A stretch of DNA of 36,311 nucleotides from Malonomonas rubra (GTDB lineage Bacteria; Desulfobacterota; Desulfuromonadia; Desulfuromonadales; Geopsychrobacteraceae), in NCBI RefSeq assembly GCF_003247215.1, contig NZ_QKAP01000132.1, forward strand, positions 1-36,311, in the 5' to 3' direction. Positions within the stretch are counted from its first letter, which is position 1. Each line of letters opens with the position of its first letter. Of this stretch, positions 22,396-26,533 are shown one piece after another. The notes under the pieces are model-generated. The model had not been told where the DNA came from and did no database searches. It saw nothing but the letters and a program-made list of their open reading frames with translations. A program made the position numbers and the translations under genes.

Positions 22396-23070
22396 ATGCA
22401 GAACATGAATCCTCTCATCAGCATGGCTTTTATGACCGGCTTTCTAGGCTCGGCGCACTGCATCGGCATGTGCGGTGGACTGGTCAGCGCCCTGTCGCTC
22501 ACCGCAGACGGACGCAGCAGTGGGTTGCTGTTTCACATTCTGTATAATCTGGGAAGAACAATTACTTATAGTTTTATAGGTTTATTGGTCGGTTGGCTCG
22601 GATCGGCGATGGTGGTTAGGAGTTCGTTGCAGGAGGTTACCAGAGTATTACTGATCGGTAGCGATCTGTTTATTATCCTTATCGGTTTGGGAAGTGCCGG
22701 ACTGTTTGCCAAACTGAACATCATGACGCTGGAAATAGGTGGACCGATCCGCCTCATGTCGAAGGCGGTGAAGGGCTTGCGGAAGTTATCCCCTGCCCTG
22801 TCGGCTTTGCCCCTTGGCATGCTGCTCGGTTTTTTGCCGTGCGGAATGCTGTATGCAATGGCACTGACAGCAGTACAAAGTGCCGACAGTTTAACTGGTG
22901 CGCTGACCATGGGGGCTTTCGGTCTGGGAACCATTCCAGCTCTTTTCCTGGTCGGCAGCGCGGCTCAATGGATTAGCTCAAAAAAGAATTGGATGCTTAA
23001 AGCGGCAGGAATCATGGTGGCGCTAATGGGCTGCTACAATCTATTCAATCATATCCGTATGCTCAGTTGA
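22396..23070 (+). CDS. TauE/SafE-like (DsbD transmembrane type) protein of the cbb3 assembly cluster
   Basis: A 224-residue membrane protein with about six helices. Conserved cysteine motifs are GSAHCIGMCGGL near the N-terminus and GFLPCGMLYAMA in the middle, as in the 'sulfite exporter TauE/SafE family' proteins that follow ccoS in many bacteria. Its proposed role is copper or thiol-redox handling during cytochrome oxidase maturation; the sulfite-exporter name is historical. It starts 18 bases after ccoS. Its last 8 bases overlap the 3' end of the convergent XRE-domain gene, so no terminator can lie between the two. Confidence 0.85.
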   Translation: MQNMNPLISMAFMTGFLGSAHCIGMCGGLVSALSLTADGRSSGLLFHILYNLGRTITYSFIGLLVGWLGSAMVVRSSLQEVTRVLLIGSDLFIILIGLGSAGLFAKLNIMTLEIGGPIRLMSKAVKGLRKLSPALSALPLGMLLGFLPCGMLYAMALTAVQSADSLTGALTMGAFGLGTIPALFLVGSAAQWISSKKNWMLKAAGIMVALMGCYNLFNHIRMLS

Positions 23071-24004
23071 CTGGCTGATTATTAACTTGAGTTTTACTTT
23101 GGTAAACAGGAACAAAAACATCTTTAACTGCATCCCAGCGATAGCCCCCTGCATCCCAAAGTTTTTCTATCAAATCCCAATCAAGGGGAAGTTGGCCTGT
23201 CTCGTCAATCTGATTGGACACCTCCAGAATCTCAAGGTCCTCAATGACATGATTGCCATTTGTATCAGCCCAGTGCAGCGGTTGAATTTCCATCTGCCCG
23301 ACCGATTGCGGAACAATCGCCGTCCTCTGGCCCTCTGGGTTAGCTATTAATTCACCCTTAATCTTAATGGTGTCGGCAATGGCGGCATCTTTCGGCACTT
23401 CGAGAAGGTACGCGACGCTCGTTTTCACCTGCGGTTTGCGGAAAATCCAGCGTGCTTTACCTAATTCATTATCGAGACTCGATGCAAGTGGTTCTGAAGC
23501 GACAAGTTGCCAACCCGCAGGGAACTCTTCTGTTAAAATCATTCCCTTCAGTGACATTTCAGAAGAAAGGCGTACCCGAATCGGCACACGACTACCTGGC
23601 GCCGCATAGGGGGGTAAATATCTGATTGCTGTTAAATTTACCGGTTTGGGGGAGGTTTGGCTTAGAAGTATTGCTACAACGACACCAAATAAGCAGGTAA
23701 GCACAGCAAGCAAAAGCCAGTTTTTTTTTCCTGGTCTAACCTCTTCCTCAGCAATATCCTCTACGATAGGTTCTTCCTGCTTTAAAATTTCCTCGAAGTC
23801 AACCTCAAGCGCTTCGGCCAGTTTAAGCGCGTTGTCACGACGAATCGTCGGATAGCGATTATTCTCCCATCTAGAAACTGTATCGGTTGTAACCCCGACC
23901 ACCTTGGCAACATAAAGTTGAGTCAGACGTTTTTCTTCCCTTATATTACGAATCGCTTCACCGTCGATAGAAACCGATGAATTATGTCGTGACTCAAAAT
24001 CCAT
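23063..24004 (-). CDS. Membrane-tethered XRE-family regulator with large extracytoplasmic domain
   Basis: A 313-residue protein. An N-terminal XRE helix-turn-helix (about 12-75: IRNIREEKRLTQLYVAKVVGVTTDTVSRWENNRYP, given here only as landmarks IREEKRLTQ and VSRWENNRYP) is followed by an acidic linker, one membrane helix (about 100-120, WLLLAVLTCLFGVVVAILLS) and a periplasmic region. That region has beta-rich character (RVPIRVRLSSEM, VAYLLEVPKDA) and near the end DTNGNHVIEDLEILEVSN, a dockerin/EF-hand-like calcium-loop pattern. The start at 24004 (MDFESR) is chosen because it precedes the HTH closely and has GGAG upstream. It may act as a one-component transmembrane sensor; target and signal are unknown. 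Confidence 0.75.
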   Translation of the reverse strand: MDFESRHNSSVSIDGEAIRNIREEKRLTQLYVAKVVGVTTDTVSRWENNRYPTIRRDNALKLAEALEVDFEEILKQEEPIVEDIAEEEVRPGKKNWLLLAVLTCLFGVVVAILLSQTSPKPVNLTAIRYLPPYAAPGSRVPIRVRLSSEMSLKGMILTEEFPAGWQLVASEPLASSLDNELGKARWIFRKPQVKTSVAYLLEVPKDAAIADTIKIKGELIANPEGQRTAIVPQSVGQMEIQPLHWADTNGNHVIEDLEILEVSNQIDETGQLPLDWDLIEKLWDAGGYRWDAVKDVFVPVYQSKTQVNNQPVN

Positions 24005-24194: not shown

Positions 24195-24264
24195 CCAAAA
24201 TCAGATATGAAAAGATGCTTGGCAACAGGAGGAGTAACTCTAACTTTCCACGAGGAGGAAAAAG

Positions 24265-24588
24265 ATGAAGAAGATATTGACCCTGATTGCTGCCGTATCG
24301 CTTGTTTCGTTAAGTGCACTGACTGCCATCGCAGAAAACAAAGGACCTGAAGAAATTAAAATACCAGCCAGCATGGGAGACATTACTTTCAACCATGCAA
24401 AACACCAGGCATCTATTACTGACTGTACAACATGCCACCATGCAGGAGTTGAAGCAGGGGCCTGTAAAAGCTGCCACGGTGAAAAACCTGAGGCCCCGAA
24501 AGCCAAAAAAGTTTTCCACCAATTATGTAAAGACTGCCATGAGAAAGAATCTGGACCCACCAAATGCAAAGCATGTCACGTGAAATAA
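24265..24588 (+). CDS. Small periplasmic tetrahaem cytochrome (class III, c7/c3 type)
   Basis: A 107-residue secreted cytochrome. The signal peptide (1-23, MKKILTLIAAVSLVSLSA core, cleavage after AIA) leaves about 84 mature residues with four CXXCH motifs: CTTCH, CKSCH, CKDCH and CKACH. The mature part has exactly eight histidines, enough for four bis-His haems. FNHAKH and CHHAG match cytochrome c3, and the ending GPTKCKACHVK matches the c7 (PpcA) family of Desulfuromonas and Geobacter. It probably shuttles electrons between inner-membrane quinol oxidases and outer-membrane or terminal reductases. A very strong GAGGAGG ribosome-binding site (24251-24257) suggests abundant expression. Confidence 0.92.
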   Translation: MKKILTLIAAVSLVSLSALTAIAENKGPEEIKIPASMGDITFNHAKHQASITDCTTCHHAGVEAGACKSCHGEKPEAPKAKKVFHQLCKDCHEKESGPTKCKACHVK

Positions 24589-24684
24589 TCTACTGAAATA
24601 TAGGATTTTATTGAGAGGGTCTCTAGATAAGTTTCACACATTAAACAGGGAAATGAGCATTTATAAATTTTTTCTTATTTTTAG

Positions 24685-24712
24685 TTGACATTAATGTTTT
24701 TTTACTTATAAT
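24685..24712 (+). promoter_or_regulatory. Perfect-consensus sigma-70 promoter in the intergenic region
   Basis: TTGACA (24685-24690), a 16-base spacer and TATAAT (24707-24712): both hexamers are exact. No plus-strand coding sequence follows; an intrinsic terminator begins 45 bases later. The promoter is therefore best explained as driving a short RNA. Confidence 0.7.
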
Positions 24713-24718
24713 AAGAAT

Positions 24719-24792
24719 CAAAAGAGACAAAAAAGCTCTCTCTAAACCAAATTTTTGCCCCGTGTTCTCCCTCCTGACGCGGGGCTATTTTT
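24719..24792 (+). ncRNA. Candidate small RNA (about 73 nt) with CU-rich terminator loop
   Basis: Bounded by a perfect sigma-70 promoter (24685-24712) and an intrinsic terminator (24757-24792). The 5' part can form a short AGAGA/TCTCT hairpin around an A-rich loop (24723-24743), followed by an AT-rich single strand. The terminator loop contains CTCCCTCCT (24767-24775), complementary to Shine-Dalgarno sequences and identical over CCUCCU to the 16S rRNA anti-SD. This is the architecture of regulatory RNAs that block ribosome-binding sites. No ORF of note lies within it. It is predicted from sequence only, with no family match known to me. Confidence 0.5.
24757..24792 (+). terminator. Rho-independent terminator (plus strand)
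   Basis: Stem GCCCCGTG (24757-24764) with CGCGGGGC (24778-24785), one T-G pair, a 13-base loop and TATTTTT following. It can end both the candidate small RNA and any read-through from the cytochrome gene. The minus strand has no T run after the stem. Confidence 0.85.
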
Positions 24793-24799
24793 ATACAAA

Positions 24800-26455
24800 T
24801 CAAACGCCCTTAAACACCTTCAGCAAATGAGGCACCAATTGTTTTTTACGAGAAAGGACTCCTTCAAGGCGGTAGAGATTCTTATCCACTTGAGGATAGC
24901 CAATGATATAAGGCAGTTTCCCCGGACCGGCAGTCAATAGCAGGCTAGTCTCCATCACAATATCGGTAACCAACAGTGCAGCCAATTCGTATCCCTTTTC
25001 AGTGCGTAATTTGCTCAATTCATCGGATAACTCTGCTGCCCGCTGATGAAAAGAATGAAAATTAACCACTTCCACCTGACCTAGGCCTAGCAGATGCTCA
25101 CCTGCCATGTATTCCTTGAAATCGGTCAACAAAAGGTCACGTGCCGGTGCGCCATTCGCCATTGGACTTCCTGAAGCAAACAATTCACTACCAAATGTTT
25201 TGTGCTCAAGTCCTGATAATTTTTCCAGCCATGAGACCAGATTACGATCAGTTTCCGTCGTTGTCGGTGATTTCAGGATGAGTGTATCGGACAATAACCC
25301 AGACAATAAAAGTCCGGCAATTTGTGATGACGGCTCGATACCGGCATGCTGATAAAGCGTCGCTACCAAAGAACAGGTACTGCCAAGCGGTTGATTAATG
25401 AAACGAATAGGCATATCAGTGTGGAAATTACCAAGCCGGTGATGGTCTATTACTTCTAGGATTTCGACTTTATCGGCTCCCGGCAGGGCCTGTGACAATT
25501 CGTTATGGTCGACCAAGATTAGCTTGACCGGAGAACTTTTGATCAAGTGGCTTTTGGTAGCGACCCCCCATACCCGCTCATCCGGAGAGACTACAATCGC
25601 ACCAGGATTTTTACTGTGCAGCAACTTTAATCTCAGGTCATCAAGCAGATCGTTCGGCGCTACCTGCAGAAAATCATCTTCCACCAACTCACCAACTGGG
25701 GTGGCCATCCGGGTCAACCAGACACTGTTAGCAGTATCGTAAGCACTGCTCAGAATCGAAACTCCCTTTTCTTTGGCTGTTTCAATCAGCTCATCATTTA
25801 CAACCGACTTACCAGAAACGATCAGCAGTCGCACACCTGCATCTATCGCCATTTTCTGTATACCATCACGGTCACCGGTAATCAAAATAGTCTTTTCCGG
25901 AATTATTTCATCAACCCAATTACTGAAACTCGATTCACAACGCGCCCCGACATAAAGGTTGAAATCCTCAACCCGATCAGCATCAACCAGATGGTGACCG
26001 ATGGCAGACAAGCAGTTCTGGATCGATGCCAAAGAAGCCCTAACCCGGCGCATTTTCTCCGGATCACTCGGGACCAAAAAGACCTCTGACGCAGTCTTCA
26101 GTAGCAAAAGCCCTTTAGGATGATATTCATCATCGACAACGGGAAGCATGCGGATACGATGCTTATGATAAAGTTCAATCGCTTTCGACATCGGCGTCAG
26201 TTGATGGATAGTAATAACCTCTTCGGTAACCACATCCTTAATTCGCGGATGGACATCGGCCAGCAACTCCGGAAGCGGCATCCCGAGACGTTCGAGCACA
26301 AACTCGGTCTGCTGATTGATGTTTCCCGCTCGAGCCGGCTGAACATTTGACATGCCCTGCAACCGTCTTAACTCTGCATAGGCAATCGCGCTGCATATAG
26401 AATCAGTATCGGGATTTCGGTGCCCGACGACATAAACCTTCTCTTCGTTTGTCAT
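24800..26455 (-). CDS. ppaC: Family II Mn-dependent inorganic pyrophosphatase with CBS-DRTGG regulatory insert
   Basis: A 551-residue cytosolic enzyme that hydrolyses pyrophosphate to phosphate. The DHH-type catalytic N-terminus has GHRNPDTDS (metal-binding His and Asp residues). CBS1 (about 65-125), a DRTGG domain (about 185-245) and CBS2 (about 250-310) are inserted before the DHH motif VIDHHRLGN. The DHHA2 domain ends with the substrate-binding SRKKQ motif. CBS-PPases are regulated by adenine nucleotides, typically inhibited by AMP/ADP and activated by ATP or diadenosine polyphosphates. The start at 26455 (MTNEEKVYVVGHRN) has AAGGAG upstream; a longer frame adds 12 unlikely residues. Confidence 0.93.
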   Translation of the reverse strand: MTNEEKVYVVGHRNPDTDSICSAIAYAELRRLQGMSNVQPARAGNINQQTEFVLERLGMPLPELLADVHPRIKDVVTEEVITIHQLTPMSKAIELYHKHRIRMLPVVDDEYHPKGLLLLKTASEVFLVPSDPEKMRRVRASLASIQNCLSAIGHHLVDADRVEDFNLYVGARCESSFSNWVDEIIPEKTILITGDRDGIQKMAIDAGVRLLIVSGKSVVNDELIETAKEKGVSILSSAYDTANSVWLTRMATPVGELVEDDFLQVAPNDLLDDLRLKLLHSKNPGAIVVSPDERVWGVATKSHLIKSSPVKLILVDHNELSQALPGADKVEILEVIDHHRLGNFHTDMPIRFINQPLGSTCSLVATLYQHAGIEPSSQIAGLLLSGLLSDTLILKSPTTTETDRNLVSWLEKLSGLEHKTFGSELFASGSPMANGAPARDLLLTDFKEYMAGEHLLGLGQVEVVNFHSFHQRAAELSDELSKLRTEKGYELAALLVTDIVMETSLLLTAGPGKLPYIIGYPQVDKNLYRLEGVLSRKKQLVPHLLKVFKGV

Positions 26456-26533
26456 ACAACCGCTCCTTGATGAACAAACCATTTCCGGCACCTTTTAGCA
26501 TTGCCCAACATGGCCAGGTCATTACCAGAAATG

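Follow-up and report, generated by a model that had tools for sequence, protein, structure and literature searches.

The question raised by positions 24685-24792 of a 36,311-nucleotide (nt) stretch of Malonomonas rubra DNA (contig NZ_QKAP01000132.1; the whole stretch is called the window below) is whether a promoter and a terminator lying close together downstream of a cytochrome gene make up a small RNA (sRNA) gene in their own right. An initial annotation had proposed here a candidate sRNA with an anti-Shine-Dalgarno (anti-SD) loop and had named the cytochrome gene as one obvious target. Our analysis makes it likely, from sequence comparison, that 24685-24792 is a stand-alone sRNA gene with its own promoter, whose terminator loop would block the Shine-Dalgarno (SD) sequences of several mRNAs. 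The comparison of related genomes thus supports the independence of the proposed gene, and the part of the proposal that singled out the cytochrome was not supported.

The promoter (24685-24712, forward strand) consists of a -35 box TTGACA at 24685-24690 and a -10 box TATAAT at 24707-24712 with a spacer of 16, matches the consensus at 12 of 12 bases, and is the sole exact site with a spacer of 16-18 in the window (mean of 0.005 in 200 dinucleotide shuffles). The terminator hairpin (24757-24785, forward strand) starts 44 nt past the promoter end and is composed of an 8-base-pair stem (24757-24764 with 24778-24785) and a loop at 24765-24777, followed by the U-tract of an intrinsic terminator at 24788-24792. 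The fold predicted for 24715-24800 has an energy of -21.9 kcal/mol (z -3.94), as good as which was found in none of 200 shuffles. The loop carries the anti-SD sequence CUCCCUCCU at 24767-24775; its first base, C24767, is mostly paired to G24776 in the predicted fold (unpaired probability 0.26), and the remaining eight bases at 24768-24775, UCCCUCCU, have an unpaired probability of 1.00. No ATG was seen between the promoter and the hairpin or in the predicted RNA, and the single listed open reading frame (ORF) of at least 50 amino acids (aa) in the region starts with the TTG of 24755, at the base of the hairpin. The anatomy given in the initial annotation, namely an exact promoter, a terminator within about 45 bases of it, no ORF between the two and a loop with the anti-SD core CCUCCU, was therefore confirmed.

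The positions of promoter and terminator, together with a covariance model that we call R1, define a predicted sRNA of about 72-75 nt (24719-24792, forward strand), its 5' end being placed 6-8 nt beyond the -10 box. A conserved TAGTTGACnTTAAT overlaps the -35 box, and an A/T-rich region ending in TTTTTAG (24663-24684) lies directly upstream as a possible UP element; positions 24678-24684 of it have an identity of 0.84-1.00, against a mean of 0.22-0.31 at 24627-24656 (such values are over 19 loci, the window's own included, throughout). The 5' part of the RNA contains a conserved pyrimidine stretch, CUCUCUCU (24736-24743), a possible second seed that is partly paired in the predicted fold, with an identity of 0.79-0.89 at 24736-24742 and 0.32 at the last U. 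In the g5 relatives a GCUCGACGGAGC hairpin stands in place of this stretch.

A 121-base query had matches in 47 of 60 genomes, the window's own included, at an expect value (E) of at most 1, the weak ones including chance matches. At 16 places in 15 genomes, the window excluded, the match ran over the query from its start through the terminator with 77-90% identity, and two further full-length places had 66-68%. The conservation profile has two peaks, the promoter (blocks of 0.91, 0.87 and 0.76, with 0.95-1.00 for TATAAT itself) and the terminator (blocks of 0.96-0.97), compared with 0.22-0.50 in the upstream stretch 24567-24666, although the rows behind the profile were gathered with a pattern containing the loop, which is a selection effect, and in several to many of them one of the two neighbours is missing, so that the values used for comparison come out lower. 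Because of these limits, conservation was retested from the convergent neighbouring gene (24800-26491, reverse strand), whose product has DHH/DHHA2, CBS and DRTGG domain matches and which we take to be a pyrophosphatase of the inorganic type.

Of 41 family genomes, 33 have a match to this protein; the search listed 34 matches, 30 of which were recovered as loci. Model R1 found the sRNA beside the pyrophosphatase in 21 of the 30, and CCUCCUG followed by A or G was kept in all 21, a count to be read with the fact that the loop is part of R1 and that some of these loci went into building it. Over these 21 loci the eight stem pairs were paired in 98.8% of cells, above all 500 shuffles; the covariation score was reached by 7 of 500 shuffles, and two-sided changes occurred at two of the eight pairs, a number reached by 73 of 500. 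The covariation of the stem is modest. Strong matches to R1 (E <1e-5) were present in 20 of 26 family genomes, many of the 20 being in the training set, and in one genome outside the family. The loop is regarded as conserved in related genomes, a point on which the initial annotation had staked its proposal, because the promoter and the terminator have been kept jointly in the family; it offers a case of fixed loops while stems drift.

Several points weigh against a stand-alone anti-SD sRNA, among them the selection just described for both sets of loci, the lowered comparison values and the frequency with which shuffles reached the two-sided changes. The 5' part of the sRNA (24717-24756) is only moderately conserved at 0.56-0.68, a level similar to that over most of the end of the pyrophosphatase gene (0.53-0.69 at 24807-24856). 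In 9 of the 30 loci the sRNA does not adjoin the pyrophosphatase; four of these (G016, G017, G018 and G031) have it on the same contig at a distance of about 2.1 kb, and no copy was found near the pyrophosphatase in G010, G011, G015, G022 and G024, the flanks having been inspected for seven of the nine missed loci. The loop of G013 is intact, but its stem has mismatches and its U-tract is poor. Finally, searches for targets among 28 window ORFs and in 10 genomes of the genus established none.

The upstream neighbour (24265-24588, forward strand) encodes a class III cytochrome with four CXXCH motifs and a match to PF02085 (Cytochrom_CIII, E 4.2e-10), as expected from its earlier description as a tetrahaem cytochrome, and a gene for an HTH_3 protein, assigned by domain match and synteny, is divergent from it (23063-24004, reverse strand). 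The sRNA usually sits with the cytochrome on one side and the convergent pyrophosphatase on the other. In L025 (= L172), L026 and L175, the sRNA and the HTH gene are present and the cytochrome was not found (E <=1e-4), the pyrophosphatase is the only neighbour found beside the sRNA in L021-L023 and L028, the sRNA of L015 faces a DUF3108 gene, and none of five neighbour proteins was found in L008, L009 or L011. Because loci persist without the cytochrome or without the pyrophosphatase, we concluded that the sRNA needs neither neighbour. The sequence TAGTTGACNTTAAT occurs at 10 sites in 8 of 10 genomes of the genus, each at a copy of the unit (one truncated by a contig end), and since all 10 occurrences sit at unit copies, the promoter element TAGTTGACnTTAAT is in this form dedicated to the unit. 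The exact hairpin is carried by 17 named records, including Malonomonas rubra DSM 5091 and three Desulfuromusa assemblies. The sRNA is also carried by L141 (JADFVC010000439.1), a contig of a metagenome-assembled genome labelled Chloroflexi; a contig of equal length exists in G004, of the window's genus, and it is probable that the contig was mislabelled or mis-binned.

These arrangements bear on the alternatives, of which the best survivor, in itself unlikely, is a double role in which the element terminates the cytochrome mRNA and the sRNA is also released by processing from the 3' end of that mRNA. The two lie on the same strand with no intervening terminator listed, but the promoter is kept in loci without the cytochrome, and few stretches are less conserved than the spacer that separates the cytochrome from the promoter (0.22-0.31). 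We give little credence to a simpler form of this explanation, in which the element only ends the cytochrome mRNA and its resemblance to a promoter is of no significance. The distance from the stop codon of the cytochrome gene to the -35 box downstream is 96 nt, with no other forward-strand terminator listed between, and the cytochrome transcripts may end here too; the promoter hexamers, however, are nearly invariant, and a plain terminator would have no need of a conserved loop. It is because the unit persists in loci where the cytochrome was not found (L025, L026 and L175) that termination alone is an unlikely explanation.

A similarly low probability attaches to the loop being bound by a protein or by ribosomes, for example as a decoy, rather than serving as an mRNA seed. 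Protein binding would likewise give strong conservation of the loop, but the loop has the anti-SD core, and CyaR, LhrC and alpha-r14 engage mRNAs, or are predicted to, through such motifs. Moreover, the predicted RNA contains no GGA and is hence no usual CsrA sponge, a candidate that we rejected. It is very improbable that the RNA acts in cis on the 3' end of the pyrophosphatase mRNA, be it as its antisense or as its convergent partner: the convergent and adjoining arrangement in 21 of 30 loci would suit it, but the two are about 2.1 kb apart in the four genomes named above, the sRNA faces a DUF3108 gene in G009, and conservation peaks in the hairpin with its loop. A small peptide was rejected for want of an ATG in the RNA, and a bidirectional terminator serving the pyrophosphatase because the reverse strand has no U-tract after the stem.

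For the preferred reading of a stand-alone sRNA, repression through pairing with SDs suggests itself as the mechanism from the U-rich linker, the intrinsic terminator and the exposed anti-SD loop, although everything beyond anatomy and conservation is what we infer. A sigma-70 promoter of its own would drive an RNA of about 73 nt that stops at the intrinsic terminator, the loop of which would present CUCCCUCCUG(A/G) as a seed. This seed would pair in trans with the AGGAGG(GAG)-type SDs of several mRNAs, the CUCUCUC stretch of the 5' part may supply a second contact, and the resulting duplex would block binding of the 30S subunit and so repress translation. Hfq probably takes part; it is encoded in 20 of 21 genomes searched, the window's own included.

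With regard to targets, the ribosome-binding site GAGGAGG of the cytochrome gene is present at 24252-24258 as previously noted, but its pairing with the loop (-11.3 kcal/mol) ranks only tenth among the 28 window ORFs, which were picked with their starts by a crude rule, and the cytochrome SD is thus unsupported as a special target. The second element reported ahead of the cytochrome, AGGAGGAG, does exist, at 24227-24234 and not at 24229-24236 as first given. It pairs with the loop at -15.9 kcal/mol, better than the cytochrome SD, no start codon was seen at a usable distance after it, and the one match in the window compares with 1.37 expected by chance; it is perhaps a chance occurrence, or else a second pairing site in the cytochrome leader. 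In the 10 genus genomes the pattern CAGGAGGGAN{1,9}ATG had 26 sites in 9 of the 10, compared with 6 for a backward control, an excess that serves as a lead only, because ordinary SD enrichment would also give one. Two downstream ORF families of at least 30 aa recurred, a 354-aa protein in 3 of 10 genomes, which is a candidate branched-chain aminotransferase by reading of its sequence, and a 312-325-aa protein in 2 of 10.

Loops of this type are also found more widely in the order. A terminator pattern with a CCUCCU loop had matches in 103 of 118 genomes, though the pairing of the arms is not checked by the pattern and some matches are not hairpins, and a control with TCCTCC in place of CCTCCT had matches in 66 of 118. 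This control is imperfect because it also picks up many of those loops (CCTCCTCC, TCCTCCT), along with a different conserved type of terminator. Sums over the forward strand of the 118 genomes were 166 for CCTCCT, 49 for the shifted TCCTCC and 4 for a backward control of CCTCCT; they were compiled by hand from columns, and the reverse-strand rows were left out because overlapping T registers are counted twice there. A stricter CCCUCCU pattern was matched in 3 of 6 genomes of the class outside the order, and among 237 genomes from the rest of the phylum it was matched in 12, about 5 of them with a good hairpin by eye; the rates for the two patterns are not directly comparable, since the patterns differ. 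The genome G064 (family f12) had 17 distinct places among the matches listed, some of them near-identical and near contig ends.

In 48 distinct units that were inspected, with expressions composed after the sequences had been seen, 27 had a second CCUCC at most 60 nt upstream, 13 had a TTGACA-TGAC...GT...TAT promoter dyad and 7 had a UG(U/C)GGCAG element. The dyad is present in the f12 units L078, L086, L090, L093, L095, L106, L110, L111, L112, L119, L120, L123 and L125, mostly with a second CCUCC ahead of the terminator with the CCUCCU loop and in several copies per genome, and presumably resembles IscR sites. A conserved UGUGGCAGG element is found in the 5' part of the sibling units L177, L179, L181, L182, L078 and L108. 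Three consecutive terminator hairpins with C-rich loops, like a tandem sRNA array, occur at L029/L055 (G049:C1, about 1411800-1412300), and L102-L105 of family f18 have a conserved-looking unit in which a GUGUUGCUAAGCCAUG stretch (AUGUUGC in some) is followed by a GUUCC...CCUCCUCCGGAAC terminator.

It is possible, if somewhat short of probable, that this RNA and a misfiled Rfam family, the atoC motif (RF01733), both belong to a large class of anti-SD sRNAs in the order that is multi-copy and has gone unrecognised. As part of this tentative picture, stems and 5' parts would diverge around a nearly fixed CCUCCU terminator loop, with many copies per genome in one family, and, with the same reserve, some members might stand under an IscR/Rrf2-like promoter dyad. 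If so, different signals, iron-sulfur status included, would converge on a shared SD-blocking seed. The broader class around the sRNA family merits a proper survey.

The atoC motif, for which the source is Weinberg et al. 2010 (PMC2864571), had matches in 96 of the 118 genomes (E <=1), nine over the cut-off, and in one of 14 named control genomes, none over it. A promoter with at least 10 of 12 consensus bases lay directly before 15 of the 20 best atoC loci and in 1.6% of 1000 random windows, a comparison in which the model used to choose the loci itself begins with the -10 box and in which some -35 boxes are poor. The next ORF of at least 100 aa, by a crude ORF caller, was on the same strand after 8 of the 20 loci and on the other strand after 12. 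Based on the promoter in front and this division of strands, atoC is probably a free-standing sRNA and not a leader, and a sibling of the sRNA at 24685-24792; evidence that Rfam's atoC probably shares this free-standing design would be new. An atoC-like copy in the same genome (L051 2610-2705 = G000:C77:17609-17704, minus strand, 41.9 bits) has a GGAGGCAGUGGCAGCCUCC 5' hairpin and lies between an ammonium transporter gene and a convergent gene for an Rrf2-type regulator, both named from their translations.

When the window was scanned against Rfam, no family reached its cut-off, and the three best scores at relaxed thresholds, all sub-threshold, were for CyaR, atoC and LhrC. The statement in the initial annotation that no named family matches is right as far as cut-offs go and has to be qualified for atoC, which shares the promoter layout and the loop. 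At 21.7 bits, atoC falls short of its gathering cut-off of 50. The likeness consists of a promoter-like sequence in front, a short 5' part and a 3' terminator hairpin with a CCCUCCU loop and U-tract, all of which the sRNA has; the consensus loop of atoC is CUUUCCCUCCUAG, and a GGACG hairpin loop, present in 10 of the 20 atoC loci, recurs as CGACG in the 5' hairpin of the g5 relatives. The stem and the locus of atoC are different, however, and the sRNA has no 5' hairpin of the atoC type. Rfam labels atoC cis-regulatory, whereas the next gene after the sRNA is convergent and does not provide a cis position.

CyaR (RF00112) gave the best score, 26.5 bits against a cut-off of 47 (E 0.0022), most of it contributed by the terminator, whose loop has UCUCCC. 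In the alignment the ACCACCUCCUU that CyaR has ahead of its terminator is without a counterpart in the sRNA, and no CCUCCUU precedes the terminator in its sequence. CyaR pairs with the SD of ompX (PMC11795201) and is known for CRP control and Hfq dependence. LhrC1-5 of Listeria (RF00616) scored 21.4 bits against a cut-off of 110; its CUCCC loops, the terminator loop among them, bind the lapB SD region in vitro (PMC4132741), but LhrC has several binding sites and a Gram-positive host. The alpha-r14/cuckoo RNAs of alphaproteobacteria keep an ultraconserved anti-SD motif unpaired while their stems differ (PMC10746234). In these RNAs an identical CCUCCUCCC occurs in unpaired parts of three hairpins, whereas the sRNA, from another bacterial class, has CUCCCUCCU in one loop.

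In the wider bacterial group small RNAs as such are already known, from Geobacter. RNA sequencing of G. soli gave 30 differentially expressed sRNA candidates, listed as coordinates with no family names in the sections seen, and the same paper cites Qiu et al. 2010 for sRNAs of G. sulfurreducens (PMC6013743); the latter has an Hfq homologue, GSU1999, and three predicted sRNAs of the CsrB/C type, which are not this RNA (PMC11934962). We found no published account of the sRNA, judging mostly from listings of papers. With its own promoter and terminator, no ORF and a conserved, predicted unpaired anti-SD seed, the sRNA has the features of a trans-acting anti-SD sRNA, and the sequence comparisons make it a well-supported conclusion that it represents a new family of a known kind, that of anti-SD sRNAs such as CyaR, LhrC and alpha-r14. 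What would be new is a conserved anti-SD family, named by its proposed mechanism and testable in cultured Malonomonas rubra.
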